From positions 1 to 29,836 of IMG/VR virus record IMGVR_UViG_3300037847_000185: a stretch of DNA of 29,836 bases. One strand, written 5' to 3'. Source of the stretch: a virus. A program made the position numbers and the translations under genes. A model generated the notes under the pieces. That model searched no databases. It was not told where the DNA came from and saw only the letters and a list, made by a program, of their open reading frames with translations. Shown piece after piece: positions 8,482-25,073 of this stretch (position 1 is its first letter; each line of letters starts with the position of its first letter).

Positions 8482-8482
8482 G

Positions 8483-8851
8483 TCAAATGTCCTTCCCTAA
8501 ACTAAAGGTGAAAGGCTTATAACCTTTCTTGTCCAGCACCCGTTGCCAGCCTTTACGGCCCGCAACACTCATCCCAGTACAGCCGCTTAACTTTGCATAG
8601 TGTACCGCCGATTCATCCATATCAACAATAGTGTCCATATTTCCGCCCGCTAGGAAGATATGTAACACTTTTTTGCGCGGGTAACATATGATCTCAGTTA
8701 CAGCGCAGGCATCGTCAGCAGGCCAAAACTGCATTAAGCCTTTTTTTACGCCATCTACGATGTCTTCAAATATGTGGGTGTTGCCCCCTCTGTCTAATGC
8801 CGCCTCAATCCACGGTTTACAGCGGTCTAGCTCTTTATCTAAATCCTCCAT
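8483..8851 (-). CDS. Conserved phage protein, possibly GNAT-like fold
   Basis: 122 residues with a strong AAGGAG site. The pattern AVTEIICYPRKKVLHIFLAG followed by DMDESAVHYAKLSGCTGMSV and AGRKGWQRVLDKKGY resembles a recurrent phage protein in the tail/late region. The layout (a strand with a basic YPRKK segment, a helix, a strand, then GRxGWxRxLxxxGY) is like the end of a GNAT acetyltransferase, where a GRxGW/GF motif precedes the last strands. A complete acetyl-CoA binding loop (Q/RxxGxG/A) is not obvious, so catalysis is doubtful. It may be a degenerate GNAT fold used structurally. No membrane segment is present. Confidence 0.55.
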   Translation of the reverse strand: MEDLDKELDRCKPWIEAALDRGGNTHIFEDIVDGVKKGLMQFWPADDACAVTEIICYPRKKVLHIFLAGGNMDTIVDMDESAVHYAKLSGCTGMSVAGRKGWQRVLDKKGYKPFTFSLGKDI

Positions 8852-8862
8852 TTACGCACTCC

Positions 8863-9156
8863 TTACGGTTGAACTTTAACAAAACCGTTTGAATCAACGT
8901 AAAGCGCCCCCGATACAGATGTGCTGCTCGGCAAGCTGTTACCTTTAGACATTAAAACTTGCACAAATTCGTTACCAACGGAAACAACCAGATAGCCATT
9001 GCTTGCGTCATACAGCAAAATGCCGTTTTCAGTTGCCACATCGGACGTTTGCTTTTGCGATATCAGCGCCCTGACCCGGGTTAGGTAATCGTTTAGATCC
9101 TCCGCCCATAAATGCGGTGTCTCTCTGGAGTACGGTGGTGGTAACTCTCTGCTCAC
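8863..9156 (-). CDS. Small tail-associated protein, unknown
   Basis: 97 residues, starting with GTG at 9156 (GTGA overlap with the stop of the large tail protein) and preceded by GGAGGAAGG. A helical N-terminal part (TPHLWAEDLNDYLTRVRALI) is followed by short beta repeats, YLVVSVGNEFVQVLM and ALYVDSNGFVKVQP, of the kind found at fibre tips or in small virion decoration proteins. Position directly after the large tail protein suggests a virion component. No family assigned. Confidence 0.55.
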   Translation of the reverse strand: MSRELPPPYSRETPHLWAEDLNDYLTRVRALISQKQTSDVATENGILLYDASNGYLVVSVGNEFVQVLMSKGNSLPSSTSVSGALYVDSNGFVKVQP

Positions 9157-11057
9157 CGCCTTCCTCCGCCGCTGATACGCAACCGGACATCACCTACACG
9201 CCAGTTAGCCTCTGCATCGCCGTCAATCCGAACCCTAACTTGCCTGCCCGTCATCCTAACGCTTGTCGGGTTTGTTGGGTCAAACGGGCCATGCTCAGTC
9301 TCGCTTCCGTTAGGGTAAAAGCGAGTTTTAAATTTAACGCTGACCTCGCCCTGCGTATCCTCTTCTGGGATCATCTCCGTAATACGCATAACCGTGTCAC
9401 CGTCAGCAATGTTTACGGGGCCACTTTCAACAAATACCGCGCTACCCTCATGACCATATCCTGACTCATGGCGATATACCGCGCCATCTGTGCCAATCCA
9501 CATCGGGTCCAAGAACACGCCAGAATCTACGCCAGTGCAGCGCCCAAGATCGCCCACAAGCCAATGGTTTTCGTTGTAGTCGTAAGCAACGTACCGGGTG
9601 TTTTCGCTTTGGCCTTCGCCAGGGTAAAACCACCAAACCTCGTTAAATTTCTGATTAGCAACACAGAATCCGTGGCTAATTCGGTCTCGGTTCATCTCGG
9701 TAAATACCTTGTCATGCACCTCGCATGGAAGAACTCGAGCCGTTGAACCGTCATATACAAAGAAGTTGCGTTCACCCATCCAGAAGGCTGTCGGGCCTAC
9801 AGAAGCCAGCATATTGCGACCAACTAAGCCGCACGAGTTGCCGATTTTCTGAAACCCAAACACCGTAGGTGGCCCCTGATACGTTGCGACCCACGCATCT
9901 ATATCTGTACAGATCAGGGTTCTACCTCGCACCCTTGCCCCTGCAACAATCTCGCCTGATGTCTGTAGCTCAAGGTCGCCAGCCTCGTTAGTAACCGCTG
10001 GCTGCCACTCGTACAGGTTTTCACGGTCACACCACTGCACCTTCCGAGTGTTGCCGCCTGCGCCAAGGCAGAATACAAATCTTTCAGCGGTAACAACTAT
10101 CGCTTTGTTTGATGTTGGCACTTCGCTAGAAACGGACACTGATGAGTTAGCAGAAACAAGTGTTGCAACCGTTGTCGTAGGACTTGCCGCAAATGCCGAC
10201 ACATCCAACTCATACAAGTTGCCGTCTGCATCAGACAGCGCAACCAAGTCTTCACCCCAGTTGTCTAGCGTCCAATTAGTAGCCGCTGCGACCGTGTAGT
10301 TTCTTTCTCTGGGTACGCCATAAGCGCCAGAGCCATAGTTTTTACCACCGTAACCAAGGTTTTCAGTCGCTTGTGCAATGCCCGCACTGAACCCTGCCGG
10401 GGTGATGTCGTAGACAACATCGTTGCCGTCTATCATCGCTAAACGGTTGTATGACCCAGCAGCAAGGTATGGCGATCCATTATTTGACGCCCATGCGTGT
10501 GAGCCTCTGGACTGCCTGTTGGCTTGGCGTACCGTTATCTCAGTGAGCGTAATCGTGTCTGTCTCTCCGCCCGTAGCAGAGTCAAGCGTAATAACTAGAT
10601 TGGTGTTTGAAAGCGATCCGCCAGTGGTGATCGAAAACGAACTACGGCCTGTTGTCGTAATGTTTGTGCTGGATGCCACCCCGCCAAGGGTGATCGTTGC
10701 TGACGCCCCTGTAGACACCGCTGTTACGTTTACATCTACGACATAGCTGGTTGAGACCGCCAGCACACTCGACAAGCTCTGCGTGATGCTCGCCGCTGTG
10801 CCTGCCGTATTGCTCAACTGCAGCGTGTCAATATCTGCATTGTAGTTGGTGTTAGATAGCGTCCACTTTGACGAATCTTCTAGGTGCGGGTCATTGCTAA
10901 TCGTTTCAATGTTTGCCGACTGCACCCAGCCGCCTACTGGCTGCGGAGCGTTGTTAGTCCAGCGCACAAGGCTAGAGTCAAGCCAGCGCCCCTTAGAGTC
11001 TAAGTCTACGCCGTGACTATAAACGCCTGCGGGAATGTCCAGCTTGAATAGGGGCAT
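9153..11057 (-). CDS. Large tail structural protein (stabilisation-type) with inserted beta domain
   Basis: 634 residues. The start IPAGVYSHGVDLDSKGRWLD..VRW and PVGGW, and the end with TRFYPNGSETEHGPF, PTSVRMTGRQVRVRIDGD and WRVGDVRLRI, match a widespread marine podovirus structural protein. It is comparable in position to P22 gp10-like tail stabilisation/accessory proteins. Between residues about 49 and 179 lies a Ser/Thr/Gly-rich beta segment (carbohydrate-binding-module-like) that interrupts the conserved core, which resumes at SRGSHAWASNNGSPYLAAGS. The central region is a beta-rich, propeller-like structure with repeated W/Y-containing turns. It begins at a TAATG overlap and probably forms part of the tail hub or fibre attachment ring. 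Exact particle location is inference. Confidence 0.68.
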   Translation of the reverse strand: MPLFKLDIPAGVYSHGVDLDSKGRWLDSSLVRWTNNAPQPVGGWVQSANIETISNDPHLEDSSKWTLSNTNYNADIDTLQLSNTAGTAASITQSLSSVLAVSTSYVVDVNVTAVSTGASATITLGGVASSTNITTTGRSSFSITTGGSLSNTNLVITLDSATGGETDTITLTEITVRQANRQSRGSHAWASNNGSPYLAAGSYNRLAMIDGNDVVYDITPAGFSAGIAQATENLGYGGKNYGSGAYGVPRERNYTVAAATNWTLDNWGEDLVALSDADGNLYELDVSAFAASPTTTVATLVSANSSVSVSSEVPTSNKAIVVTAERFVFCLGAGGNTRKVQWCDRENLYEWQPAVTNEAGDLELQTSGEIVAGARVRGRTLICTDIDAWVATYQGPPTVFGFQKIGNSCGLVGRNMLASVGPTAFWMGERNFFVYDGSTARVLPCEVHDKVFTEMNRDRISHGFCVANQKFNEVWWFYPGEGQSENTRYVAYDYNENHWLVGDLGRCTGVDSGVFLDPMWIGTDGAVYRHESGYGHEGSAVFVESGPVNIADGDTVMRITEMIPEEDTQGEVSVKFKTRFYPNGSETEHGPFDPTNPTSVRMTGRQVRVRIDGDAEANWRVGDVRLRISGGGRR

Positions 11058-11563
11058 TAAGATGTATACCCAATAAATGAACCGTAAAGAGTGCCGCCCA
11101 CATTCCAGATTTGAATCCAGTTTGTAGCACCCACCTCAAGCTCTGGGGCAGACCCAAACAGCCACTCCATAGTGGGCCATGTGATGTCGTCAGTAGAGCC
11201 AACAGAGGTAAAACGCAGGGTTACGAACTCGCCAGATGCAAGGCTTGAGGTGATAGTTACGTCACCCGCCATCGCGCACGTTTGGACCGTCCCGTTAGCT
11301 GGGTCAACATTCTGAGTGCCTGATGTGCCTAACGCATGGACTTGCTCAGTAATCTTGCCATCTACGTCAAGCGCGGCGACCTGATTTAGCGTCATGCCTG
11401 ATGTGGTATAGCTGTTGAGGTTTAGTACAGTCCCACCGCCGCCACCCCCAGCATTCAGCAGAGTGTCCAAAGATGTCCAGTTATTGTTGAGTTTTGTACC
11501 CCACGCATCGGAGTCGCCACCGATTGCGGGAAGGTTAAAACTGAAATTTGTAGTAGTAGTCAT
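11057..11563 (-). CDS. Short tail fibre / tail tip protein
   Basis: 168 residues. The N-terminus FSFNLPAIGGDSDAWGTKLN followed by NNWTSLD is a common adaptor sequence at the base of phage tail fibres. A poly-Gly hinge (GGGGGG, about 39-44) separates it from a beta-rich C-terminal domain with TVQTCAMAGDVTITSSLASG, FVTLRF, ITWPTMEWLFGSAP and IWNVGGTLYGSFIGY. That C-terminal pattern is the knob found in many fibre tips. It follows a 45-bp AT-rich gap after the Gly-rich gene and overlaps the next gene as TAATG. Confidence 0.65.
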   Translation of the reverse strand: MTTTTNFSFNLPAIGGDSDAWGTKLNNNWTSLDTLLNAGGGGGGTVLNLNSYTTSGMTLNQVAALDVDGKITEQVHALGTSGTQNVDPANGTVQTCAMAGDVTITSSLASGEFVTLRFTSVGSTDDITWPTMEWLFGSAPELEVGATNWIQIWNVGGTLYGSFIGYTS

Positions 11564-11608
11564 AGCTGCTCTCGCTCTTAATCCCTATATTTTACTACGG
11601 CTAATAAA

Positions 11609-12520
11609 TTATTTTGCCACTTTCGTTGACGGGTAACGCCTTGATCTTCCGGGCCACACAATCCTTACCGCGCCTTCTTTGCCAGAATATCCGTAAAATC
11701 CGGCACCAATCGAATTAGCCCCTGCTGGGGTTGGACCGCCGCCGCCATATTCCTGATCATCTTGTCCTGAGTCTGTGCCTTGGTCATGCGACCCTGGGCT
11801 GCCATCGTTCTCTCGGATCGTATTTTCTGACGTATTTGCAGTGTCATAAATACCACCAGCGCCGGAAGTACCCTGACCATATAGACTCACACCGCCGCCA
11901 TAGCCCCCTTGTCTTCTAAAAGGGCTGAAGCTGCCACTAAGCCATTTTCCACCAGCGCCGCCACCGCCACCACCGCCTGACCCAGCGGAGCCGTTCCCTG
12001 TTGCGCCGTTACCGCCATTTCCAGCATAGCCAGCAGCACCGCCACCACCGGGGCCAGCAGAGCTAAATCTGCCATTGGCCCCAGAAGCGCCGCTTCCGCC
12101 TGCATATGATCCCTTTCTGGAAACTTCCGCCGCCAAAATGGTAGTGTCGCTGTTTGTGTTGTCGCCGCCTGCACCGCCTTTTGCTTGTATTAAAGTCGTG
12201 CCGCTGCGGGATATTGATGACGCGCCGCCGTTACCCCCTGCGTCGTTAACCCCGCCAAAGTTGTATGCCCCGGCTGACCCACCATCACCAACGACTACGG
12301 TAAGCTGCTGTCCCGGGCTAACTTTTATCGTCCCGTAGGCTAACGAGCCTCCGTCTCCAGCTTCACAGAGATAGTTGCTAGAGCCGCCGCCACCGCCGCC
12401 AATACAAACACACGCTATATACTCAACATTATCTGGAACAGTAAACGTGTGGGTTCCCGGGCTGAATATCTGCTCCCCTTTTGCGGGCAGACCCTTGGCT
12501 TTCACCATTGCTCTAAACAT
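11609..12520 (-). CDS. Gly-rich tail adhesin-like protein
   Basis: 303 residues with a short N-terminal lead and a beta motif EQIFSPGTHTFTVPDNVEYI that opens the Gly-rich domain. From about 40 to 290 glycine makes up roughly a third of residues, in runs such as GGGGGGSS, GGAGGDN, GPGGGGAAGYAGNGGNGATG and GGGGGGAGG. The protein ends in YSGKEGAVRIVWPG. This order (strand, Gly-rich body, ..G..G.VRI.W) matches Gly-rich adhesins; in T4-like phage S16 the gp38 adhesin packs polyglycine helices into a sandwich that displays host-recognition loops. A receptor-binding role is therefore likely. It overlaps the upstream gene at TAATG; GGAG lies about 10 nt before the start. Confidence 0.7.
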   Translation of the reverse strand: MFRAMVKAKGLPAKGEQIFSPGTHTFTVPDNVEYIACVCIGGGGGGSSNYLCEAGDGGSLAYGTIKVSPGQQLTVVVGDGGSAGAYNFGGVNDAGGNGGASSISRSGTTLIQAKGGAGGDNTNSDTTILAAEVSRKGSYAGGSGASGANGRFSSAGPGGGGAAGYAGNGGNGATGNGSAGSGGGGGGGAGGKWLSGSFSPFRRQGGYGGGVSLYGQGTSGAGGIYDTANTSENTIRENDGSPGSHDQGTDSGQDDQEYGGGGPTPAGANSIGAGFYGYSGKEGAVRIVWPGRSRRYPSTKVAK

Positions 12521-12984
12521 TACACATTACTCCAAGTGTCGCCAGGTTCTGGCCTGTCTGCCCAGATCGCGGATGGCTCCACCCTGTCTGTCCATGTGTC
12601 GCCGGGTTCCGGCTCTGATTCCCACTTCAAGCGTCCTGATATCGCCATGACCCCAGTAGCGGCAGATTTTGCGCCTGATTTAGTAATGATCCTAACTGTT
12701 GATGCTAGTAAATTACCTTCTGCTGCTATCAGGGCCGCGCCAGCATGATTCATCCCGGCACCAGCGTTGGTGACGCTAACTGCAGCCGCTTGTATTCCGG
12801 CCTGCTGTACTCGATACGGCGAAAGCGTAGTGCTAGAGGCTGCCGCAGAAGCGAGTGCCGCCGGGAGTACAAGCCCCGCGCCAGCGTTAGTGGCAGATGC
12901 TACATCAGAAGATGCAGCGGCATTAAGATAATCGCCTTCTGCGTATCCCTTTGCCCAATACCCTGACGCAACATATTTGCTCAT
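12520..12984 (-). CDS. Small fibre-associated protein with Trp decapeptide repeats
   Basis: 154 residues from ATG 12984; a TTG 18 bases upstream is the only longer option. It begins SKYVASGYWAKGYAEGDY, a short aromatic segment seen at the start of small structural proteins in marine phages. An Ala-rich beta/helical middle follows (about 25-120). The C-terminal 29 residues carry three tandem decapeptides (EPGDTWTDRV, EPSAIWADRP, EPGDTWSNV). It lies between two receptor-binding candidates and is likely a virion surface component. No ribosome-binding site better than GGCGATC is visible. Confidence 0.58.
   Translation of the reverse strand: MSKYVASGYWAKGYAEGDYLNAAASSDVASATNAGAGLVLPAALASAAASSTTLSPYRVQQAGIQAAAVSVTNAGAGMNHAGAALIAAEGNLLASTVRIITKSGAKSAATGVMAISGRLKWESEPEPGDTWTDRVEPSAIWADRPEPGDTWSNV
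12523..12609 (-). repeat. Three tandem 30-nt units encoding a Trp-containing decapeptide
   Basis: The last 87 coding bases of the gene at 12520-12984 encode EPGDTWTDRV, EPSAIWADRP and EPGDTWSNV. The first and third units are nearly identical at DNA level (gtgtcgcc(a/g)ggttc(t/c)ggc on the plus strand), which indicates recent duplication or recombination. Confidence 0.72.
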
Positions 12985-13020
12985 GCAATCAGATCGCCGC
13001 AATAATCAAAGCAAATGGCA

Positions 13021-13989
13021 TTAGTTAGCTCCCTCTAACGCTTCTAGTCGCGTTGTTAAATCAGCAATAGACGATGCTTGCGCGTCAATAGTTGTTTTTT
13101 GCTCTTGAATAGCTTTAGTTAACAGCGCAACCATGTTTCCGTATGCCAAAGCCTCTGGCTCATCTTCAGTGTTGTAATCTACAAACTCTGTTAAGCCCGC
13201 ATCGTGTACTTCTTCTGCAATAAACCCACCAAACCGTCTACCGTCTGCATCATTAATTCCCTCAAACGTAACAGGACGTAAATTCATTACATCAGACAGG
13301 CCGTAAGACATATCAGTAATTTCTGTCTTGTAGCGTCTAGATGATGTTGATCTCTGAAAACGTCCAGCGGGAGTAATTTGTACATTTGCGGAACTGCTAG
13401 TGGTGTTTGAGTATGTTGGGGTGCTTTCTAAATACCCATCGGTAGTAAAGCGCGCCGCGATAACACCAGACGTAGCTTGTCTAAATACAAGAGCGCCTGC
13501 GTTGTCGTGTCGTAAACCAACTTGCCAAAATCCACCATCGGTTTTCCATGACGTAGCGGAGTATCCGTTGGTTCCAGTAGCCTCGATTATTGCACCCGCT
13601 GATGTACCAGAAGTTTGCACTTTAAATTGGTTGTAAGAGTCTACGGTTGTAGTGCCAATGGCTACGTTACCGCCTTTTGGATTTAAGGATATAGTTTGAG
13701 CGCCTGCCGAAAGGTTTCGTGATTGAATAAAACCAATGGCGGTTGCGCCACTGTTATCCATGCCAAACTCAAGCTGATTGTTTGCGTTGCCGCCTTGTAT
13801 TGAAAACAGCGGTGACTGCGAACCAAGCGCCCCGTCAGCGTCTGACGTAGAACCAGCAACGTGCAACGGAACAAGAGGGACAGTTATATTAACGCCAACA
13901 CGCTCTGAGCCATCTACCGTAATTGCTGTGGCGTCTGCGCCATCATCAATGGCTTGCGAGAATTTACCTTGTGCTTTAGTCAGTGCCAT
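13021..13989 (-). CDS. Tail fibre with C-terminal S74 intramolecular chaperone
   Basis: 322 residues. The N-terminus carries the repeat module IDDGADATAITVDGSERVGV shared with two other fibres in the window. The middle is a beta-rich shaft with short repeats typical of trimeric fibres (WQVGLRHDNAGALVFRQATS, ARFTTDGYLES). From about residue 216 it has SSRRYKTEI, the Ser-Lys start of the Peptidase_S74 chaperone domain, then PVTFEGINDADGRRFGGFIA and EEVHDAGL. It ends in a coiled coil (QEQKTTIDAQASSIADLTTR). S74 domains help the fibre trimerise and are then cut off before the Ser. AAGGTAAT precedes the start. Likely a host-binding fibre. Confidence 0.78.
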   Translation of the reverse strand: MALTKAQGKFSQAIDDGADATAITVDGSERVGVNITVPLVPLHVAGSTSDADGALGSQSPLFSIQGGNANNQLEFGMDNSGATAIGFIQSRNLSAGAQTISLNPKGGNVAIGTTTVDSYNQFKVQTSGTSAGAIIEATGTNGYSATSWKTDGGFWQVGLRHDNAGALVFRQATSGVIAARFTTDGYLESTPTYSNTTSSSANVQITPAGRFQRSTSSRRYKTEITDMSYGLSDVMNLRPVTFEGINDADGRRFGGFIAEEVHDAGLTEFVDYNTEDEPEALAYGNMVALLTKAIQEQKTTIDAQASSIADLTTRLEALEGAN

Positions 13990-13999
13990 TTTGATTACC

Positions 14000-15334
14000 T
14001 TATGGAATTAAATAGGCTACAGAGCCGCTAAACCGTGTGTTGTTGTTAAGTCCTGACACTGTCATATATTGAGCAGTGGTATTGCCTGACGTACTGATGT
14101 AAGACAGCCAACCGTATGAATTCGTTAGCTCCCACCACATAGAATTCACAGACGTAGACATATTAAGAAAATTGGCTATGCCGCAATCAAAGTTGGCGCT
14201 CTCTCTGCTAAAGGGCCAGCCTGAGAGCAAAACATAGTTACCAGACATATTGCCTTTATTACTTAACTGGACTGCGTAACTCGCTACAACAAGACGGCCT
14301 ATTTTGACGTAATGCCCTTCTTGAGAGGAATATGTTTGTGATGCTGGAGTGGATTGACCATACCCAATCAAAGTTGGCGTCCACGTTCCTTCCTCGTAAT
14401 CGTCAAGCGCATTTGAGGCGGCGGTATCCCCGTTAAAGGTTAAGCCGTCAGCGGTTACCCGCGCCCTTTCTGATGCGGTTGTGTTATTAGCTGATGAGGC
14501 ATAAAACTTAACGTGACCGTTGCCGCTTGCGCTTGATAGCGTTACGCCTGCATGGGCTTTGCTCGTATTAACGAACGCGCCCGTATTTGGGTTTCTTTGC
14601 GTGTTTAGCTGTAGAGAAGTGCCATCAAAATCCAAAAATCCCGCGTTGGTTGTGCCGCCAATTTGTAGCGCCCCAGCACTATCGATGCGCAAACGCTCGA
14701 CTCTGCTTGAGCCTGAGTTAAATACAGTAGACCCCGAAGAACTTACGCTTAATTGGTCTCCATTGTGGGCATAACCAATCTGACCCCTATAACTAGCATC
14801 GCCGCTCGTGCCGTCTGCAAAATGAAGATAATTATTATTGGTTGTGTTAGTTGACGCTATTGTTACGCCGCCTTCAGACCCAGCAGAAACTACTAGGTTT
14901 TTTGCATAGTAAGAAGATGGGCTGGTAGTACCAATCCCGACCTGTTCTGAACTATCTATGGTTATAGCTACGGCGTCAGCGTTATCGTCGATGCCCGTTG
15001 AGCTAAAATTGCCCAGAGGGTAATTCATCTGCGCCGTGCCAACCGTGCCATCAGAAGGTGTGCCAATGTCCACGGCGTCACCGATTACTAGGATGTAGTC
15101 GATCACATCGCTGCTGGTCAGCGCAGAGTCAAACACAATGTTAGACCCGGATACGGTATAGGCAGACTCGGGAGCCTGCGTTATACCGTTCAGCGAGACG
15201 ATTAGGTTTCTAGCTGAAGCAGGGAAATAAGCAGTGCCGCCTACCGCCAGCGCATAAGTAGCGGTAGCTGACGTAGTTATAGCGTCAATTAGCTGGTACG
15301 CGCCTACTTCTGGCTGCTTTCCGATAAACGGCAT
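14000..15334 (-). CDS. Tail fibre protein
   Basis: 444 residues. The N-terminal domain (1-100) contains ATYALAVGGTAYFPASARNL and IVSLNGITQAPESAYTVSGS, the LNGxxQxPxxAYTVSG pattern of a particle-binding beta domain found at the start of many podovirus fibres. Residues 114-136 carry the shared module GIDDNADAVAITIDSSEQVG. A repeat-rich beta shaft follows. At 302-321 the linker DTAASNALDDYEEGTWTPT introduces the C-terminal domain with YVKIGRLVVASYAVQLS and Trp/Tyr-rich strands, a head domain probably contacting the receptor. It lacks an S74 domain. The MPF(I/L)GKxP start is shared with the fibre at 15651-16550, pointing to duplication. Confidence 0.74.
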   Translation of the reverse strand: MPFIGKQPEVGAYQLIDAITTSATATYALAVGGTAYFPASARNLIVSLNGITQAPESAYTVSGSNIVFDSALTSSDVIDYILVIGDAVDIGTPSDGTVGTAQMNYPLGNFSSTGIDDNADAVAITIDSSEQVGIGTTSPSSYYAKNLVVSAGSEGGVTIASTNTTNNNYLHFADGTSGDASYRGQIGYAHNGDQLSVSSSGSTVFNSGSSRVERLRIDSAGALQIGGTTNAGFLDFDGTSLQLNTQRNPNTGAFVNTSKAHAGVTLSSASGNGHVKFYASSANNTTASERARVTADGLTFNGDTAASNALDDYEEGTWTPTLIGYGQSTPASQTYSSQEGHYVKIGRLVVASYAVQLSNKGNMSGNYVLLSGWPFSRESANFDCGIANFLNMSTSVNSMWWELTNSYGWLSYISTSGNTTAQYMTVSGLNNNTRFSGSVAYLIP

Positions 15335-15338
15335 TTAC

Positions 15339-15599
15339 TTACTCCCCAGGCGGCGTATTTGCCGCGTCAAACTCTTGCTTGGCGTCAATGACTTCCTGCG
15401 TGTGAACAGCAGCGCAGATCGCCTGCACTTCTGCATCCTCATTACTGTAATCATCGCCTGCATTAATAACGTGGCGATGGAAACCGCGAGAGATTTCTGC
15501 GCCGTCTTTGTAGATGACCGTAGCTGTGCGTACTTGCACTGCCTTAAACTGGCCTACGACTTCTACCTTGTCTACTTCTACTGATTCTGTAAGTGCCAT
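15339..15599 (-). CDS. Conserved small protein between fibre genes, possible fibre assembly factor
   Basis: 86 residues with AAGGAG 8 nt before the ATG. Strand-rich first half (VEVVGQFKAVQVRTATVIYK) followed by GAEISRGFHRHVI, then an acidic helix and AICAAVHTQEVIDAKQ. The ISR(S/G)FHRHVV..D.S.E..(V)...A...HT..V pattern recurs in many marine phage genomes next to tail or fibre genes. Small acidic proteins in such places are often fibre assembly chaperones, but no published function is known to me for this family. It sits in the fibre cluster between two paralogous fibres. Confidence 0.6.
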   Translation of the reverse strand: MALTESVEVDKVEVVGQFKAVQVRTATVIYKDGAEISRGFHRHVINAGDDYSNEDAEVQAICAAVHTQEVIDAKQEFDAANTPPGE

Positions 15600-15650
15600 G
15601 TTTATCTCCTTTGGCTATGGACTGTCTGCCCCAATCTCCGAGAGGGGTAA

Positions 15651-16550
15651 TTAAGTGGTTTTGTAGGTAGCACTGAGGTATAGATTAGTGTTGCTCGTAC
15701 CTAGATTGCTAGGGTAAATAGATTCGGAATTTGAGCGAGTGTCTGTGTTGTACAGATAAAAAGAGGTCATCCCATGACCAGTTGAGCCAGACGTAGGCCA
15801 AACACTACTAAAGTTGTAAGCATATCCAATAGTAATGCTTTGATAAGCGGAGCTGTGGGCAGTAAAAGGCATACCGCCGACAAGCAAATACCCGCTCGCT
15901 GATCCAATAGACATAGAGCTAGTATCCAATCGACAGTGAACAGTTACGAGGTCGCCAATTTTTGTGTAGTGTCCGCTTCTCGTGCCGTAGCTAAGAGAGC
16001 CAAAACTGCCCGATGACGGGACATACGTTGGCGTCCATGTGCCTTCTTCGTAATCGTCCAAAGCGTTAGCGGCGGCTGAGTCTGAGCCAAACTTAATTCC
16101 ATCAGCGTCAACTCGTAATCTGGTAGCCCCGACAGAACGCAGATATAAATAGTCTTGTGCGTGGTAATAGCCAACGCCCCCCACATCATTGTCATCAGGG
16201 TCAGAGAAAAAAATTACTGACTCTGTACTAGCGGGGCTAGAAAGCTGAATAGCCGCGTGTGAGCTATGCTCTACATGAAGTTGAGTATAAGAGTGAGCGG
16301 CAGTACCGCCAGATGAGCCACCATAAACGTGTAGCTTGTCAGACGGGCTTGCAGTGCCGATGCCCACTTGCTCAGAACTATCAATCGTGATCGCAGTAGC
16401 ATCAGCGTTATCGTCAATGCCGTTTGAAGTAAAAGTGGTGACCGTAGCGGGCGCAGCAGATCCGCCGCCGATAGTCGCGCCGTCGATAGTCCCGCTGTTA
16501 ATGTCTACTGGACTAGCGACCTCTGTTGGCTTCTTCCCAAGAAACGGCAT
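15651..16550 (-). CDS. Tail fibre protein, paralogue of the fibre at 14000-15334
   Basis: 299 residues. Start MPFLGKKPTEVASPVDINSG, with no LNG-type N-terminal domain. Residues 44-66 carry the shared module NGIDDNADATAITIDSSEQV and 156-175 the linker DSAAANALDDYEEGTWTPT. Both are nearly identical to the 444-residue fibre, while the domains between and after them have diverged. The C-terminal domain (176-299) contains HYTKIGDLVTVHCRLDTSSM followed by Ser/Tyr-rich strands. The protein therefore looks like a shorter copy with different binding surfaces. It begins at a TGATG overlap with the preceding gene. Likely host-range determinant. Confidence 0.74.
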   Translation of the reverse strand: MPFLGKKPTEVASPVDINSGTIDGATIGGGSAAPATVTTFTSNGIDDNADATAITIDSSEQVGIGTASPSDKLHVYGGSSGGTAAHSYTQLHVEHSSHAAIQLSSPASTESVIFFSDPDDNDVGGVGYYHAQDYLYLRSVGATRLRVDADGIKFGSDSAAANALDDYEEGTWTPTYVPSSGSFGSLSYGTRSGHYTKIGDLVTVHCRLDTSSMSIGSASGYLLVGGMPFTAHSSAYQSITIGYAYNFSSVWPTSGSTGHGMTSFYLYNTDTRSNSESIYPSNLGTSNTNLYLSATYKTT

Positions 16551-16882
16551 CAGGTGATCTCCATGATTCCTAAGACAACATCTAGCGCGGACGCTGTGCC
16601 TGACTGAACCTTTAGGGCATCACCTGTTTCTAGGATGTACTTCTGCCCAGCCAGCGTTTCTAGCGTAGTGTTGCTAGGGATCGACACGTTCTCTAAAAGC
16701 TGGTGCGTAGTGCCTCCAGAAGAGTCGCTAAACTGCACCTGTACGTCAACGGCGCTCGTTGTCTTGTTGGCAATAGCCAAGCCCAGCACAACCGTTGTCG
16801 TGCTGCTCGGGGCCGTGTAGAGGGTGCTGTAAGCGGAGTGATTGACGTTAGCCAAAGCCGCATTTTTGAATGTGTTAGCCAT
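16550..16882 (-). CDS. Small conserved tail protein
   Basis: 110 residues with AGGATAA seven bases before the ATG. Start MANTFKNAALANVNHSAYST, then LYTAPSSTTTVVLGLAIANK, then VDVQVQFSDS, TTLETLAGQKYILETGDALK and LDVVLGIMEIT. This is a single beta-sandwich of a very common marine phage family (MANTFKNA....LYTAP..TT.V..L...N), usually encoded beside fibre and neck genes and taken to be a virion component. The fold and role are inferred from context. Confidence 0.62.
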   Translation of the reverse strand: MANTFKNAALANVNHSAYSTLYTAPSSTTTVVLGLAIANKTTSAVDVQVQFSDSSGGTTHQLLENVSIPSNTTLETLAGQKYILETGDALKVQSGTASALDVVLGIMEIT

Positions 16883-16886
16883 AAAT

Positions 16887-17147
16887 TTATCCTAGTGCGA
16901 TAGCCAGCGCTGTCGCGTCATCTACAGTTGCGTAACTGGTCAGAGCAGAGCTAGTTATATAATTGCTATCGTTAGTCCACTGGCTTATGTTGCCGGATTT
17001 GTTGGTAAGCGTATTGGTACTCGCAGCCTCAATCTTGTTGTCATTCAGATTGATAAAGTTTGCGTCTACCTCGGCATGGGTCAGCGCAGATCCTTTTGCT
17101 GCAGTGCCGTCAGTTTGCGCCGTTGTCCGGGTTACAATGGTAGCCAT
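16887..17147 (-). CDS. Short fibre-adaptor protein
   Basis: 86 residues. It begins MATIVTRTTAQTDGTAAKGS followed by ALTHAEVDANFINLNDNK. The LTHAEVDANFxNLN motif is a very frequent first element of phage tail fibres and presumably docks them to the tail. Here the gene stops soon after a beta repeat-like stretch (NYITSSALTSYATVDDATAL), so it is an adaptor without a shaft. It could be a stand-alone docking protein or the remnant of a longer fibre. It overlaps the upstream gene as TAATG. Confidence 0.62.
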   Translation of the reverse strand: MATIVTRTTAQTDGTAAKGSALTHAEVDANFINLNDNKIEAASTNTLTNKSGNISQWTNDSNYITSSALTSYATVDDATALAIALG

Positions 17148-17560
17148 TAGTTAAGTGTTACCTTCAGATTACCAGCGGTAATTCGCAGTACATCTCCGGT
17201 TGCGACTGTTTTTGACAGCGGAGTGCTGAAGTCAGAGGGATCGGTTAGCTGCGCGTAGGCGAGCATATTGCCGCTACTAGAGGCATCAAATATCCCCGCA
17301 TAGGTAATCGTACCCCATGATCCGGTAGCCTCTGGGAACTCTATGTTCGCACTAGACGCCGCCGTAGTGGGTGACGTACCTGACACCGTAAATGCTGCCG
17401 TCTGCCTGGCGTAGCCGTTGCCAGATACCTCAGTGCCTGCCGCAGAGTCACTTGCAGTTGACGTAAACAAGCCAACGTACAAAGTAGTCGGCGCAGTGTA
17501 AGCCGTACCCCCAAAAACGTGATCGAGAACCTTGTCCTCAAGATAGTCTGAAAAACTCAT
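17147..17560 (-). CDS. Conserved tail/neck structural protein
   Basis: 137 residues. N-terminus MSFSDYLEDKVLDHVFGGTA, then YTAPTTLYVGLFTSTASDSA, GTEVSGNGYARQTAAF, then beta strands IEFPEATGSWGTITYAGIFD. The GGTAYTAPTTLYVGL...GTEVSGNGYARQ signature marks a widespread virion protein family in marine phages and prophages, typically encoded right after the connector. Probable role is in the tail or neck; it starts at an ATGA overlap with the connector gene. Confidence in the family is good, in the exact structural role low. Confidence 0.65.
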   Translation of the reverse strand: MSFSDYLEDKVLDHVFGGTAYTAPTTLYVGLFTSTASDSAAGTEVSGNGYARQTAAFTVSGTSPTTAASSANIEFPEATGSWGTITYAGIFDASSSGNMLAYAQLTDPSDFSTPLSKTVATGDVLRITAGNLKVTLN

Positions 17561-18180
17561 CCTAATCCCCTTATCTTCATATTTAACCCGGTGCCGGACA
17601 TAGATGCCGCATCACCTGATGCATTTACTTTTGATACTGCCGCGCCATATAGCTGCGCCCATATAGCCGTTCTGGAGTCTTCTGCTAAATATGGCGCTGA
17701 ATGTATTAGTGCGCCGTACAAGTAAACATCAGGCGCATCTGTTAAAAGCCAATTCGTTGCGTTACTGCTTGAGAGGGCAGGAATCTTTTGATAATACAAA
17801 AGCTCTGTTTGATATGTCCCATCTGGTGACGGGAATACCTCAAACGCTCTTTCAGCGTGACGGTAATACTTGGGCTCTCCAGTAGCGTTCTCGACGCCAG
17901 CACGCTTGTCTGCCATTGCCGCCCCAGAAAGTAGCTGCAAATTCCGCGTCCCGCTATTTGTAATATGGATTCGGATGGTTTCCACCCAATCTGATGGGCG
18001 ATCTAAATACTGCTGATCAAGGTCAGCCGTAGCCCGGTTCTCCATCTCATAGTGGCGGATGTCGCGGTTGATCTGCGCCTCAGCCAGCGTAATGAAGTCA
18101 GGAATGACCGATGTAAGATCATCCCTATTAAGGAAATCAGCAATAGAGCTTTTAAGCTCGGAGTAATTACTCAGGGCCAT
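17557..18180 (-). CDS. Head-tail connector / adaptor protein
   Basis: 207 residues from ATG 18180, nine bases after AGGAGG; an ATG two codons earlier is only three bases from the site and less favourable. N-terminus LSNYSELKSSIADFLNRDDL, then PDFITLAEAQINRDIRHYEM, then LDRPSDWVETIRIHI and FEVFPSPDGTYQTELLYYQK. The helical opening with ITLAEAxINRDIR and the central beta part with DWVE are typical of the podovirus adaptor family that binds the portal and builds the neck. Location downstream of the terminase and before tail genes supports this. Confidence 0.7.
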   Translation of the reverse strand: MALSNYSELKSSIADFLNRDDLTSVIPDFITLAEAQINRDIRHYEMENRATADLDQQYLDRPSDWVETIRIHITNSGTRNLQLLSGAAMADKRAGVENATGEPKYYRHAERAFEVFPSPDGTYQTELLYYQKIPALSSSNATNWLLTDAPDVYLYGALIHSAPYLAEDSRTAIWAQLYGAAVSKVNASGDAASMSGTGLNMKIRGLG

Positions 18181-18484
18181 ATTCATCGTCCTCCTCTGGA
18201 AGTCGAGGTATAAGCTCAATTACCGTAGGAGACATTGACCCGTCACTACTGGTTAAATCAACTTCAGTAGCTTTCAGCTTGGGTTCAGTGTACGCAGCGA
18301 TCTTGTCCCATGCGTCAATACTAGCCCTAATATCGTTTGTCTCCCCGTCAACAGCCTTTTCGTGCAGGCGCACAGCTTGCTCTGCCATCCGCATAATTGG
18401 ATGGAAATCATCGCCGTACATATCCTGCAACCGATTAAGCAAAAATGCTTTGTTTCGATTCGGGCTGCCTTTTCTGCTTGGCAT
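18167..18484 (-). CDS. Terminase small subunit-like protein
   Basis: 105 residues. Basic start MPSRKGSPNRNKAFLLNRLQ, a helical middle HPIMRMAEQAVRLHEKAVDG, then IDAWDKIAAYTEPKLKATEV and an acidic tail LPEEDDEY. A helical body ending in KIAxYxxPKLKA is characteristic of small terminase subunits and of phage proteins of DUF5681 type. DNA-binding and terminase recruitment would be the role. Against it: the gene lies after the large subunit rather than before, and no clear HTH is seen. The start overlaps the previous stop as TAATG. Confidence 0.55.
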   Translation of the reverse strand: MPSRKGSPNRNKAFLLNRLQDMYGDDFHPIMRMAEQAVRLHEKAVDGETNDIRASIDAWDKIAAYTEPKLKATEVDLTSSDGSMSPTVIELIPRLPEEDDEYGPE

Positions 18485-18642
18485 TACTTCTTCCTCTTTT
18501 TCGCTGTTTTAGCCGACTGCTTAAACGCTTTTGCTGTCGGAGCGCCTTTAGAGCCGGGCTTTCGCATTTTTTCGCCAGAACCAGCTTTGATGCGCTTACG
18601 CTTTGCATGGATGTTGGCGTACAGCCCTTTTTTACTTGGCAC
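18484..18642 (-). CDS. Small Lys-rich conserved phage protein (52 aa, GTG start)
   Basis: 52 residues starting with GTG at 18642, inside the last codons of the preceding 35-residue gene, and ending in TAATG with the next start. It reads PSKKGLYANIHAKRKRIKAG, SGEKMRKPGSKGAPTAKAFK and then QSAKTAKKRKK. The GLYANIHAKR.RI.AGSGEKMRKPGSKGAPTAKAF pattern recurs across phage genomes and is well conserved despite the tiny size, so it is certainly a real gene. The charge (about one third Lys/Arg) suggests binding to packaged DNA or to an acidic partner; the function is not known to me. Confidence 0.72.
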   Translation of the reverse strand: MPSKKGLYANIHAKRKRIKAGSGEKMRKPGSKGAPTAKAFKQSAKTAKKRKK

Positions 18643-18739
18643 GGTACTTCACCTTCTTACCAGACTTTTTAGCAGCTGCTTTTGCCTTTTTCATACCTGA
18701 CTTAGTGTACGGGTACTTTTTCTTTCCTACCTTCGGCAT
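18632..18739 (-). CDS. Tiny Lys-rich protein (35 aa)
   Basis: 35 residues from ATG 18739 with GAGGTGA six bases upstream. The sequence is MPKVGKKKYPYTKSGMKKAK followed by AAAKKSGKKVKYRAK, so about 45 percent is basic. A good ribosome-binding site, tight spacing (eight bases after the previous gene) and an 11-base overlap with the next gene support expression. MPKVG(K)KKYPYTxxGxKKAK-type mini-proteins occur beside terminase genes in other marine phages. DNA neutralisation or a virion role is a guess. Confidence 0.62.
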   Translation of the reverse strand: MPKVGKKKYPYTKSGMKKAKAAAKKSGKKVKYRAK

Positions 18740-18747
18740 ATTTCACC

Positions 18748-19029
18748 TCACCATTTCGTCTTGTTTGCCCAATACGCCGCAGACATTTTGCCTTTGGCAA
18801 TGTTCTTAGCATGACGCGCCTTAAAACTTTTTCGTCTATTCTTTTCTGTTGATGTTTTGGGGTTTTTGCCAGCCCCACTGACGCCTTGCTGCCCAAACCT
18901 AATTGTTTTTATCTTATCACCTTCTTTAGCCACTACGACATGACTTTTGGTTGGGTGACTAGGGGTTCTTTTAGGCTTGTTGTAAGCGCTTACTCCGGCT
19001 CTAGCCAGCCTACTGTCTTTCTTTTTCAT
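18748..19029 (-). CDS. Small basic conserved phage protein next to terminase
   Basis: 93 residues, starting at a TAATG overlap with the large terminase stop. Reads LARAGVSAYNKPKRTPSHPT, KSHVVVAKEGDKIKTIRFGQ, QGVSGAGKNP, then SFKARHAKNIAKGKMSAAYW ANKTKW. This is a highly conserved family in marine and soil phages (YNKPKRTPxHPxKSHVVxAK...IRFGxQGVSGAG....SFKARHxxNIxKGKxSAAYWAxKxKW). It is strongly basic and found near the terminase or portal. The role is unknown; DNA binding within the capsid or packaging complex is inferred from charge and position. Confidence 0.75.
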   Translation of the reverse strand: MKKKDSRLARAGVSAYNKPKRTPSHPTKSHVVVAKEGDKIKTIRFGQQGVSGAGKNPKTSTEKNRRKSFKARHAKNIAKGKMSAAYWANKTKW

Positions 19030-20309
19030 TACGCAACACCTCGCAATCGCCTACGCAGCGGCTGTCCCCAATCAGACGTTTGCCGATAACCTACAGCCAA
19101 ATACCTAAACGAATCTGCTGAGTGACTAGCCCAATCGTGCGCTGGCCTACCCTTCCAAACCATATTGTTGTCATCATACTCTCGATGATATGCCCGCAAG
19201 GCTTCTACGCCGTGGGCGCACTTCTCAGCGTCAAACCAGCACGTTGGCAGCATTGAGCGAACAGCTTGAATACCGTCATCTACGTTTAATTGCGGCGCAA
19301 TCGTTACGTTTGTAAGGCCAAGAGATTGCAGGGTTTCTAAGCGTGATTTGCCGGAACCGAGCTCTCTAACTCTTACATCATGCGGTAAGATGTGCTGCCC
19401 GTAAACATAGCCTTTCTCTTGCAGCATACGAGCATAATGGTCTAAACCAACACCTGACGCTTCGTAATGGTCAATCAGCCTAGTTTCCGCCCCAATTTTT
19501 TGCGCAAACCAGATAGCAGTGCTGTCTCCAACGCCCAAGTCCCAGGCGGTAATGACAGGCGCAGACTTCTCATACGGCACAGTGCCAATGCGCCCCTCAG
19601 CGTTAGCGTCACGCATTTCAATCGAGTAATACGCCCCATCATGAAATGTAAGAAAAGCACCTTCCCAGATATGGTCATAACTTTGAGGGCGCTTATCAAA
19701 ATCTTCTAGTCGCTGCTTCATCAAGACTTCAGGGAAATATGGATTGTCACGCCAATTCATTTCCGTAATCTTGCAATCATCAGGAGTGTCTACACGAAAA
19801 CGCTGATGCGTAGCTGATAGCTTGCTTTCCGGGTTCCATGACACCCAGACTTCTGAGTTTTCTTCACGCACTGTAGGTAATAGCTTGTCCCACGCCATAG
19901 ATGACACGGTTTCTGCCTCATCTACCCAACACAACAAAATTCTCGCTCTGGACTTGATGCTGTCTAGGTTTCTGCGCAAGCCAGCAAAAGTAAATTCAAT
20001 GTTGCCGTCTTTGGAGCGGATGTACCGCTCTCCAACATCGTAATACTCATTTAGCCAGTCGTATGACTGGATAGCCCCAGCAACCTCAGTAAATGAACTA
20101 TCAATCAAACTGTTCATAAACTCGCGTGCGCACAGTATCTGCCCTCTGCGTCCGCTGTTGCCCCACATAAAGCCTCGAACAGCCGCCATAATGGCAAAAC
20201 TTCTGGATTTTCCAGACCCTCTGCCTCCATAGGCGCACCTATACCTAGCATCGCCAGAAAACAAGTTAATGAGCTTTGGGGGGAGCTCAATAGTCGCAAC
20301 TTCAGACAT
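19029..20309 (-). CDS. terL: Terminase large subunit (ATPase and nuclease)
   Basis: 426 residues, normal length. ATPase: adenine-binding region before Walker A GGRGSGKS (28-35), Walker B ILLCWVDEAE with D130 and catalytic E131, motif III VSWNP (156-160). Nuclease of RNase H fold: WDLGVGDST (D257 and D262), LPHD (D311), then GRPAHDWASHSADSFRY (D392, D399) as metal ligands. The sequence is of the Terminase_3/PBSX to P22-like type. It pumps DNA through the portal and cuts it at the end of packaging. The start at 20309 follows the preceding gene by three bases. The small basic genes and a TerS-like gene follow. Confidence 0.93.
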   Translation of the reverse strand: MSEVATIELPPKLINLFSGDARYRCAYGGRGSGKSRSFAIMAAVRGFMWGNSGRRGQILCAREFMNSLIDSSFTEVAGAIQSYDWLNEYYDVGERYIRSKDGNIEFTFAGLRRNLDSIKSRARILLCWVDEAETVSSMAWDKLLPTVREENSEVWVSWNPESKLSATHQRFRVDTPDDCKITEMNWRDNPYFPEVLMKQRLEDFDKRPQSYDHIWEGAFLTFHDGAYYSIEMRDANAEGRIGTVPYEKSAPVITAWDLGVGDSTAIWFAQKIGAETRLIDHYEASGVGLDHYARMLQEKGYVYGQHILPHDVRVRELGSGKSRLETLQSLGLTNVTIAPQLNVDDGIQAVRSMLPTCWFDAEKCAHGVEALRAYHREYDDNNMVWKGRPAHDWASHSADSFRYLAVGYRQTSDWGQPLRRRLRGVA

Positions 20310-20312
20310 GGA

Positions 20313-20600
20313 TTAAATCCTGCCCTCAACAATTCTGAGCTTTTTAAAGTTGGGGTCATTCAGCTTTTTAATAATGACCCGCTTTCGGCCTTCGGAGTCT
20401 TCCCAAGCAACGCCTTCTTCTTTCATCCATTGCTCAAGCAAGTGCATGGGTACTGAGCCAACACACCATGTGTCTTTGGTTTTGCCCAACCCCATAGAGC
20501 GCGCCGTTTCAGTACGCTCTAAATACGGATCGTTAGAGTAGGATGTTCCTACTGTAAACGTGCCGTCATTGTTGTCCTGAAACTTCTCTTTGACTTTCAT
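20313..20600 (-). CDS. Conserved phage protein between capsid and terminase
   Basis: 95 residues, GGGAGG ten bases upstream of ATG. Reads KFQDNNDGTFTVGTSYSNDP YLERTE, then GSVPMHLLEQWMKEEGVAWED and KLNDPNFKKLRIVEGRI. The NxDGTFTVGTxYxNxPxLER...VGxVPMHLLxxWxKExGVxW...KxxDPxFxKxRxxxG pattern recurs in the same place (next to capsid and terminase) in many marine podovirus-like genomes. It is probably a virion or packaging-associated protein of unknown function. Its 5' end overlaps the preceding gene by 35 bases in another frame. Confidence 0.68.
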   Translation of the reverse strand: MKVKEKFQDNNDGTFTVGTSYSNDPYLERTETARSMGLGKTKDTWCVGSVPMHLLEQWMKEEGVAWEDSEGRKRVIIKKLNDPNFKKLRIVEGRI

Positions 20601-20754
20601 CTTTTCTTGGCCTCCCGCGCTTTCTTTTTACCTCGGTAACTTTTTCAAGTTGCACGCCTAATGTTGCTGCCTGCTCTTCCGGGATATCAATTACGTCACC
20701 CCGGCTGTAGCTTTTTCCATCAAGAATCAGCCTGCTAATTACTACTTTGTACAT
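20566..20754 (-). CDS. Small protein with AT-hook-like tail
   Basis: 62 residues with GGAGG five bases before the ATG, immediately downstream of the capsid terminator. The body (KVVISRLILDGKSYSRGDVI, DIPEEQAATLGVQLEKV) resembles a small SH3-like beta fold with the SYxxGDxIDIPEEQAxxL pattern of short phage structural proteins. The C-terminus KRKRGRPRK is an AT-hook-type minor-groove binding motif. It could be a head-completion protein or a DNA-binding factor. Nothing further is recognised. Confidence 0.6.
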   Translation of the reverse strand: MYKVVISRLILDGKSYSRGDVIDIPEEQAATLGVQLEKVTEVKRKRGRPRKDESQREVSGQQ

Positions 20755-20770
20755 ACTTCCTCCGGTTTTT

Positions 20771-20795
20771 AAAAAAGGGGGCGGCGAACCGCCCC
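20771..20795 (-). terminator. Strong intrinsic terminator after the major capsid gene
   Basis: Read on the minus strand, GGGGCGG-TTCG-CCGCCCC forms a perfect seven-pair all G/C stem with a four-base loop, followed by C and a T6 tract (20771-20776). It lies 16 bases after the stop of the capsid gene and 16 bases before the next start. The T6 is followed by five As, so the element may also fold weakly in the opposite direction, but the minus strand has the proper U-tract. Confidence 0.9.
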
Positions 20796-20810
20796 AAATC
20801 CACTCACCAC

Positions 20811-21767
20811 TTACGAGGTAGTGTTGTCAGCGATAATGCCGCTGGCCTTCTCATTCTTACAAATGAGGGTAAGCTCAGTGACAACCTGACGGCGAGTTGC
20901 ATCGCCAGTCTTGGCAAGCTCTGCGTTCTTGGTGGGACGCAGTACGCCAACAGCCCACATATCGTCTTGCATGACGAATACATCACGGCTGCGGTTCTGT
21001 CGAGAAGGAACGAACTCGACCGTGCCCCAGGGCGTGACATATACATCCATGTGCTTAACGACTTTTTCGCTTTCAGCCTTGATGGACGAACGCTGGTTGT
21101 TGTTACCAGTGAACGCCAATGCCTTGTTCATTTGGAAAGCGCTGAGGTAAACCGTATCCGGCTCACCGCCCTGCTCCCAAATTGACTGCATTACATCATC
21201 AAACTTGGTTTGTGAGAAAGCAGTGGCAGTACCGTCATCGGTTCGGGCATCGCTACCATCTCCGGTGGGGTTTGCACCGCTGTTGCCGCTTTGGAAATTC
21301 ACGTTAGTGATTAACCAAGCAGGAGCGCCAGCCAACTCGCGTGCAGTAGTAGAGTTACCAGCTACAGCAGCGTTGTTGTCAAACAGAGCTTTCTCAATAT
21401 CGAGCTTTTGCTCTTTGGCTGTTTTGAGCATTTGATACCCAATTTCAGCCGCTCGGCCCGCTTTCTTCAGACCCTCATCCGTATCAGGGATGACGGTTGC
21501 GTTCTTGAAGATTTGCGTTCGGTTTTGACGACGTACTGTAGCAACTCGTGCTTCAGCAGTAGTCTCGTCACCTTCAATGTGCGCGTTAGTAGTAGCGGCG
21601 CGCAAAGCGTCCGTCTGCCACTCGTGCAGCGTGTTAGCAACCTTTACCTTTTGGCAGGCGCTATAGAAGGGGGTATCGCTGGGAGAAATATCGTAAATGA
21701 TATCCTCAAGCGACTCTCGGATGCCGACAGCATCGTAACTGTCGAACGTATTGCTTAACTGTGCCAT
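20811..21767 (-). CDS. Major capsid protein, SU10/DUF5309-type
   Basis: 318 residues. The N-terminus NTFDSYDAVGIRESLEDIIY, then DISPSDTPFYSACQKVKVAN, LHEWQTDALRAATTNAHIEG and a C-terminal YVTPWGTVEFVPSRQNR, DVFVMQDDMWAVGVLRP match the SU10-type (DUF5309) HK97-fold capsid family of podo- and siphoviruses. The family is found with a P22-like portal and a separate scaffold, both present here. No N-terminal delta-domain or protease is encoded nearby, consistent with a separate scaffold. AAGGA sits 10 bases before the ATG, and a strong terminator follows the gene, both fitting high expression. Confidence 0.88.
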   Translation of the reverse strand: MAQLSNTFDSYDAVGIRESLEDIIYDISPSDTPFYSACQKVKVANTLHEWQTDALRAATTNAHIEGDETTAEARVATVRRQNRTQIFKNATVIPDTDEGLKKAGRAAEIGYQMLKTAKEQKLDIEKALFDNNAAVAGNSTTARELAGAPAWLITNVNFQSGNSGANPTGDGSDARTDDGTATAFSQTKFDDVMQSIWEQGGEPDTVYLSAFQMNKALAFTGNNNQRSSIKAESEKVVKHMDVYVTPWGTVEFVPSRQNRSRDVFVMQDDMWAVGVLRPTKNAELAKTGDATRRQVVTELTLICKNEKASGIIADNTTS

Positions 21768-21778
21768 GATTTAAGTCC

Positions 21779-22750: not shown

Positions 22751-22761
22751 GGTGCTTGTCC

Positions 22762-22989
22762 TCAGTGTCGTTTATCAAAAATCGCTTCATCTAAGATGAT
22801 TTGAGCAATGCGATCTTCAATTTTACTAAGCGCAATAACAATGCTATGCGCGGTTTCCCGGTCCTCTATTGAGGAATGCGGGTTTAGGAAGATGTTGCTC
22901 TGATCTTCCTTAATGCTTTTTAGCAGGTACTGAAACGCCTCATCGTTTTGCAGGCGTCTAATCTCTGCCGCTTTTTCTTTAATGTTCAT
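22762..22989 (-). CDS. Small conserved protein between portal and scaffold
   Basis: 75 residues, overlapping the portal stop as ATGA. Helical and soluble: INIKEKAAEIRRLQNDEAFQ-type N-terminus with FQYLLKSIKEDQSNIFL, and a SIEDRETAHSIVIALSKIED helix. The E.R.L..DE.FQ.....I...Q...F......ED.E.AH..V.AL..IE pattern is common in phages at exactly this position, and is usually thought to be a head-associated or portal-assembly factor. Function is not established. Confidence 0.7.
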   Translation of the reverse strand: MNIKEKAAEIRRLQNDEAFQYLLKSIKEDQSNIFLNPHSSIEDRETAHSIVIALSKIEDRIAQIILDEAIFDKRH

Positions 22990-25070: not shown

Positions 25071-25073
25071 AAA

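Follow-up and report, generated by a model that had tools for sequence, protein, structure and literature searches.

The window, a virus record of 29,836 bases from IMG/VR (IMGVR_UViG_3300037847_000185) analysed over its whole length, derives from an uncultured marine phage with three adjoining tail-fibre genes, here termed F1, F2 and F3, and the present study concerns the short repeats shared by these genes and the exchange of fibre parts between phages. The structural genes of the window are of the podovirus type and include those for a terminase, a portal, a Gp80 family protein and a phage stabilisation-like protein, for which the best-matching named isolate is Octadecabacter Antarctic DB virus 2 (48%). 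All features of the fibre locus lie on the minus strand. The locus is bordered by the backbone gene of the Gp80 family protein (GP4 'fiber I' family; 17147–17560; PF23140, E = 4.4e-42), which is 82–88% identical in relatives with differing fibres, and the first conserved gene reached across the variable locus from this side lies at 12520–13002 and is kept in relatives. Behind the Gp80 gene come a fibre anchor of 86 amino acids (16887–17147, from VTRTTAQTDG to LTHAEVDANFINLN) and a 110-amino-acid all-beta protein (16550–16882), a candidate hub or socket judging from its homologue alignment and AlphaFold2 model; in relatives that lack this hub, the anchor corresponds to the N-terminus of a single long fibre open reading frame (ORF). 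The anchor ends in a C-terminal tail peptide, YATVDDATALAIALG (16890–16934), which is found, as such or as a variant, upstream of the hub and is a candidate docking plug and a third seam next to the two repeats described below. There follow F1 (15651–16550), a small ORF of 86 amino acids (15339–15599; phrog_6228) that travels together with the N-terminus of F2 (73–88% amino-acid identity in the loci L035, L279, L323 and L361), F2 (14000–15334; phrog_18673, tail fibre, 5e-43) and F3 (13021–13989).

The order of parts in the three fibres is N1-shaftA-C1, N2-shaftB-C2 and N3-shaftC-S74, with repeat 1 (M1) between the N-terminal class and the shaft of each, and repeat 2 (M2) in front of the C-terminal knob of F1 and F2. 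M1 lies at 16353–16421 in F1 (GIDDNADATAITIDSSEQVGIGT), at 14927–14995 in F2 (GIDDNADAVAITIDSSEQVGIGT) and at 13891–13950 in F3 (IDDGADATAITVDGSERVGV), while M2 lies at 16026–16085 in F1 (SDSAAANALDDYEEGTWTPT) and at 14372–14431 in F2 (GDTAASNALDDYEEGTWTPT). A sequence-only reading of the window had reported these five peptides, and all five are indeed present there as in-frame minus-strand translations. F3 has no M2 and ends in a Peptidase_S74 domain instead; it carries a second M1-like motif, KGGNVAIGTTTVDSY, at 13633–13677. Similarity between the fibres is far beyond chance (BLASTP E values of 4e-22 and 3e-16 for F1/F2, 2e-9 for F1/F3 and 3e-7 for F2/F3). At the DNA level, direct repeats of 97 nucleotides (nt) at 74% identity and of 81 nt at 72% were found, spaced by 1426 and 1654 nt, together with a common gene start of 35 nt at 74%. 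The high DNA identity that had been claimed within the modules holds only in relative terms, since the F1 and F2 copies are 73–75% identical, with longest exact runs of 14 nt in M1 and 11 nt in M2, and the conservation is at the protein level. Among the codons for the same residue in these two copies, the third base is shared in 8 of 22 cases in M1 and in 9 of 17 in M2, which is near-random at synonymous sites. The low DNA identity and the few shared third bases point to modules kept by selection on the protein and not by recent intragenomic copying. M2 is not isolated, as a 37% amino-acid alignment of F1 with F2 runs through it across 142 residues.

Structural comparisons place both repeats at domain edges. 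A profile of 49 sequences (F1 and F2 of the window plus relatives) matched the MAT fibres of Bdellovibrio bacteriovorus in the PDB (8ond, Bd2133, E = 6.4e-13; 8oml, 4.7e-9; 8ojn, 3.5e-6), and those alignments that were printed pass through the VGIGT..P motif of M1. In the MAT fibres, the pattern V-G-..-P-x-x-x-L marks the loop that caps a trimeric beta-helix at its edge (PMC10769870). This motif is present in F1, where M1 continues into it (VGIGTASPSDKL), and in F3 (VGVNITVPLVPL); the M1 copy of F2 does not match the strict pattern. Homology supports the assignment of M1 as a putative capping-loop motif terminating a trimeric beta-helical segment. The AlphaFold2 model of F1, with a mean predicted local distance difference test score (pLDDT) of 79.8, contains a confident C-terminal domain at residues about 165–299 (15654–16058; pLDDT block means of 78–98), the fold of which is that of the C-terminal domain of the Dettilon tailspike (6f7d, Z = 14.7, root-mean-square deviation 2.2 Å for 124 aligned residues, model residues 167–299; Foldseek E = 6e-5). 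In this model DYEEGTW forms the first strand of the knob and ANALDD the preceding linker. M2 had been described as a linker, and the ANALDD linker is part of it, but the repeat also takes in the first strand of the folded domain; the model and its homology support M2 as linker plus first strand, the probable front edge of a knob domain common to F1 and F2. In F3 the knob position is occupied by an S74 chaperone domain (residues 216–270, 13180–13344; PF13884, 30.4 bits, above the curated cut-off of 22). The SDxxxK catalytic motif is absent from F3, which reads SSRRYK, so that self-cleavage is doubtful; F3 is, by its predicted domain content, an S74-containing fibre, a label that stops short of a self-cleaving fibre.

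A megablast search with positions 8000–26000 of the window gave no match among named phages, and the comparison therefore rests on IMG/VR contigs. In relatives fetched through the stabilisation protein (80 loci), those loci that reach across the region keep the flanking genes on both sides and have the fibre genes between them replaced. An identical fibre organisation in all relatives, which would have spoken against exchange, is clearly contradicted by these constant flanks and differing fibres. Alignment of the relatives' fibre loci for mosaic break points, the check that had been proposed, revealed the same parts recombined differently, with junctions clustering at M1 and M2. The order of parts in L323 is N1-shaftC-S74, N3-short-other knob and N2-short-C1: on this contig the anchor end, hub, N1 and M1 are fused to the shaft of F3, the N-terminus and M1 of F3 are fused to M2 and knob, and the small ORF, N2 and M1 are fused to the M2 of F1 and C1. 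L279 reads N3-shaftA-C2, with the F1 shaft (16421–16027) at 71% followed by the F2 knob (14428–14011) at 82%. In L361 a DNA block corresponding to the F1 shaft (16422–16027, 84.6%) is flanked by another N-terminus and another knob, and its limits are, within one base, the first base of M1 and the last base of M2. For L035 and L280, the shared DNA blocks start precisely with the first base of YATVDDATALAIALG at the anchor end (16934).

Exchange extends to phages with unrelated backbones. L343 and L345 have no gene in common with the window outside the fibre region, save for one small ORF and a weak S74 match in L343, and both contain a stretch of F3 (248 bp at 94.8% in L343, 13896–13649; 159 bp at 95.6% in L345). 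The shared stretch begins at 13896, the end of M1, and the second M1-like motif of F3 marks the distal end of the 248-bp cassette. In metagenome 3300030395, the L345 contig and L006 (99.9% identity with the window) have an overlap of exactly 77 bp in the F3 cassette, the assembly-graph-branch-like pattern expected when two co-occurring genomes share a stretch. As separate observations, L009 and L016 are alike in the distal half of a fibre and the genes behind it and differ in the shafts in front, with the switch near INSSGTVDF, and fibre ORFs in L140, L185, L199 and L317 also show other recurrent strings (SPTLVTPxLGTP, GGSTTQVQYNN) at junctions.

Fibre parts thus pass from phage to phage, even where the backbones are unrelated, and the modules, above all M1, are where the breaks cluster. 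Of the 545 loci compared, 119 have DNA in common with 13021–16550 as a block of 60 nt or more, and 55 as a block of 150 nt or more. In a window-centred test, with the four same-species loci removed and the ends collapsed by position and identity, the five modules contained 18 of the 45 internal block ends (4.6 expected, P ≤ 5e-5), or 24 when a margin of 30 nt was allowed (8.9 expected, P ≤ 5e-5); when ends were collapsed by position alone, a hand count gave 9 of 27 sites against 2.8 expected (hand-calculated binomial P of about 0.001). Across a collection of 288 non-redundant fibre ORFs with 47 abrupt similarity ends, 14 ends lay at M1 against 3.0 expected (P ≤ 3e-4); the test is not fully independent, because the M1 profile started from the copies in the window and was extended over those very ORFs. 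A regular expression for M1 missed many real copies and gave a weaker enrichment (9 of 47 against 4.0 for M1 and M2 together). Where different N classes are joined to a common C-terminus (199 N-typed ORFs), 21 of 34 junctions were located at M1 or M2 (9.2 expected, P ≤ 3e-4); these 34 junctions were obtained with a filter of 40% identity, and a filter of 55% left 6 pairs.

The stretch 16934–13021 is very probably a multi-fibre receptor-binding cassette built from parts, namely a constant N class (N1, N2 or N3), M1, a shaft and then either M2 and a knob (F1 and F2) or a Peptidase_S74 chaperone (F3), the parts being swapped between phages with breaks at the modules. A break at M1 or M2 would join two self-contained folding units, so that the resulting chimaeras could still fold, and the swaps may alter the surface sugars or proteins that are bound, that is, the receptor range. 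Several points weigh against this interpretation. Abrupt ends at M2 in the collection test (5 of 47 against 3.6 expected, one side) are not significantly enriched, and many junctions lie elsewhere than at the modules (27 of 45 without tolerance, and 13 of 34). The sample is nonrandom, since M2 or F1–F3 served to fetch many of the loci, the ends counted are partly non-independent, and alignments tend to stop at conserved islands even when no exchange has taken place, a bias that the filter for abruptness in the 47-end test lessens without removing and that the 45-end test, which has no such filter, retains.

The clustering could arise from shared DNA or from selection at domain borders, and the synonymous divergence of the modules favours selection. 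On balance the evidence inclines towards M1 and M2 being conserved structural punctuation, with illegitimate recombination striking anywhere and selection keeping those chimaeras that are broken between folding units. Both repeats map to domain edges, few third bases are shared between the F1 and F2 copies, and their exact runs of 14 and 11 nt are short for RecA-type recombination. This explanation is compatible with the swaps described above and departs from the recombining cassette in molecular cause alone; against it, the partner phages could have carried closer copies of the modules at the time of recombination. A rather unlikely cause is homology itself, M1 and M2 serving as short patches of shared DNA for phage annealing enzymes during co-infection, as the clustering of breaks at the modules and the exact 77-bp stretch common to two phage types (L345 and L006) would suggest. 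This would, however, sit poorly with the synonymous divergence inside the modules, and no recombinase was found among the window proteins scanned, a scan that covered part of the ORFs of a possibly incomplete contig.

Upstream of F1, the 110-amino-acid protein is 71–93% identical across 41 aligned homologues and is modelled by AlphaFold2 as a confident all-beta jelly roll (pLDDT 92). PHROG lists its families under 'unknown function', and by sequence no significant relative was detected in NCBIfam, the PDB (best E = 0.5) or Pfam. A fold search with the model returned many unrelated oligomeric jelly rolls at Z values of 8–10, among them a trimeric phage cement protein, a virus turret and nucleoplasmin; these neighbours appear to reflect a common, generic arrangement and carry no functional assignment. 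More informative is its genomic position: in 76 of 80 loci fetched by the hub, it lies directly behind an ORF ending in (D/E)ATALAIALG. An inserted ORF separates tail and hub in three others (L356, L377 and L403), and in L404 the tail end is altered through a frame change. The inserted ORFs belong to the endonuclease VII family in L356 (5685–6095) and to GIY-YIG in L377 (2095–2682), with that of L403 resembling the latter by eye. A reverse search found 120 stretches with the tail, of which 78 loci were examined; of the 77 with room downstream, 73 carry a hub homologue (28–85% identity), two a divergent one recognised by eye and two none. Another 17 hubs (34–44% identity) lack the strict tail, and the ORF before each of them ends in a variant, for instance AFAIALG, AMAIALG, GLVIALG or AMSIAL. 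Five isolates were viewed and agree in degree: Melnitz-1 (DDATALAIALG), HTVC010P (PTALAIALG), S-TIM5 (ALSIALG), HMO-2011 (AMAIAL) and, weakly, PhiW-14 (WAIVMG). As a control, among the 80 stabilisation-protein loci the same anchor motif occurs in 11 without hub and tail and in one (L035) with both, and no discordance was observed. The ORF in front of the 110-amino-acid protein thus ends, in nearly all cases, in (A/S)IALG or a close variant; the anchors involved are unrelated, with several N-terminal types, and come from podoviruses and myoviruses alike. The fibres downstream of the protein start with a few recurring N-terminal peptides.

These associations permit a tentative proposal, for which confidence and doubt are nearly balanced, of a plug-and-socket standard for receptor-binding fibres common to marine phages of different morphotypes. 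Any anchor would end in a hydrophobic (A/S)IALG plug, this plug would dock in the 110-amino-acid jelly-roll hub, and the hub would provide slots for two or three fibres, which would recognise them through fixed peptides at their N-termini (MPFLGK.P, MPFIG.QP..GAY and MA(L/I)(S/T)K). The distal parts would then be exchanged at the seams formed by capping loop and knob, with podoviruses and T4-like myoviruses both taking part. In the present phage, the IALG tail of the anchor may plug into the hub, which may in turn hold the interchangeable fibres on the anchor. That the tail is conserved merely through overlap with the ribosome-binding site of the hub gene is very improbable: its last glycine codon is GGA in 60 of 77 cases, and part of it may act as a Shine–Dalgarno site, but the 77 tails comprise 65 distinct DNA sequences, which indicates that it is the peptide that is kept, their variants retain the hydrophobic IALG pattern and not the bases, and the tail persists in the three loci with an ORF between tail and hub. 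That anchor and hub might be fused by frameshifting was also weighed but discarded, since the two are 4 nt apart in the window and their distance differs from locus to locus.

The sequence-only reading had held the repeats to be suited to recombination that swaps fibre parts, either with other phages or within the genome, and only the former survives. L005, L006, L349 and L350 represent the same virus (99.7–99.9%) and are collinear with the window over the parts covered, L349 spanning both F1 modules and both F2 modules at 99.66%. Since these contigs are collinear and the module copies have diverged at synonymous sites, intragenomic switching is unsupported. A within-genome switch, in which a phage would use its direct repeats to delete or fuse fibres of its own and so change host, is the least probable of the explanations considered. 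The spacing of these repeats accords with it, as does a weak excess of codons shared by M2 copies from the same locus (113 of 195, against 94.4 expected from codon usage), but this collinearity speaks against it, as do the inverted repeats in 12000–17600, which amount only to arms of 18–29 nt at 72–83%. With regard to an invertible fibre cassette or shufflon, these arms were seen together with no recombinase among the window proteins scanned (part of the ORFs of a possibly incomplete contig). With regard to a diversity-generating retroelement, no reverse transcriptase was found among the same proteins, template and variable repeats not having been searched for. L350, a same-species contig from another metagenome, stops inside the M2 of F1 (window position 16059), possibly at another assembly branch.

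Elsewhere in the window, a second Peptidase_S74 domain (PF13884, 36.3 bits) closes a different protein at 28623–29789, near the window end. An exonuclease-like protein with an N-terminal sigma-70 region 4 match is encoded on the plus strand at 3345–4505, opposite to most of its neighbours; its counterpart in L323, a phage that differs in other respects, is 78% identical.

The hosts that marine phages can infect are largely unknown, and receptor-binding genes serve as the guide to them. With defined seams and perhaps a common hub to go by, fibre parts in unrelated phages could be identified, compared and counted, and it would become easier to explain why distantly related phages have receptors in common. 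The tail/hub pair provides a marker for multi-fibre loci whose hub is listed by PHROGs as of 'unknown function', and it is directly testable with purified proteins.

In T-even phages, short conserved GxHxH motifs of gp37 flank swapped adhesin segments, in an exchange of distal tail-fibre motifs; none of these motifs is present in F1, F2 or F3. The knob of F1 is alike in fold to the C-terminal domain of the Dettilon tailspike gp208 (6f7d, 6f7k), at 21% identity, and the rest of that spike is unmatched. Like the fibres described here, the MAT fibres of B. bacteriovorus have trimeric beta-helical shafts, capping loops, S74 and non-S74 ends and chimaeric tips (PMC10769870). Unlike them, MATs are bacterial surface fibres with a signal peptide and an N-terminal domain of ~130 amino acids, and no hub/tail pair figures in the sections considered (PMC10769870); the N-termini of F1–F3 resemble those of other phage fibres, and these proteins are not classed as MAT. 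The branched tailspikes of Ackermannviridae likewise combine several receptor-binding proteins per branch, with constant N-terminal docking and C-terminal parts exchanged between genes and phages (PMC11721090). Their docking relies on XD/TD domains related to T4 gp10, whereas the system proposed here would dock through a peptide at the C-terminus and a small protein of beta-sandwich type. Those complexes also carry enzymatic spikes (PMC11721090), and the comparison concerns the general principle. The Alteromonas phages A5 and V22 offer a further parallel in a fibre module common to distantly related marine phages, which comprises a whole module with a separate chaperone, the abstract making no mention of seams like those described here (PMC10579305). 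The peptide strings of M1, M2, the tail and the fibre N-termini did not occur in the literature searched, though they may be described there in other words or in papers outside it. While the modular exchange of receptor-binding proteins is, from these sources, already well known (PMC11721090; PMC10579305), what looks new, as far as weak literature evidence allows, is the precise set of seams in a multi-fibre locus and the tail/hub pair.

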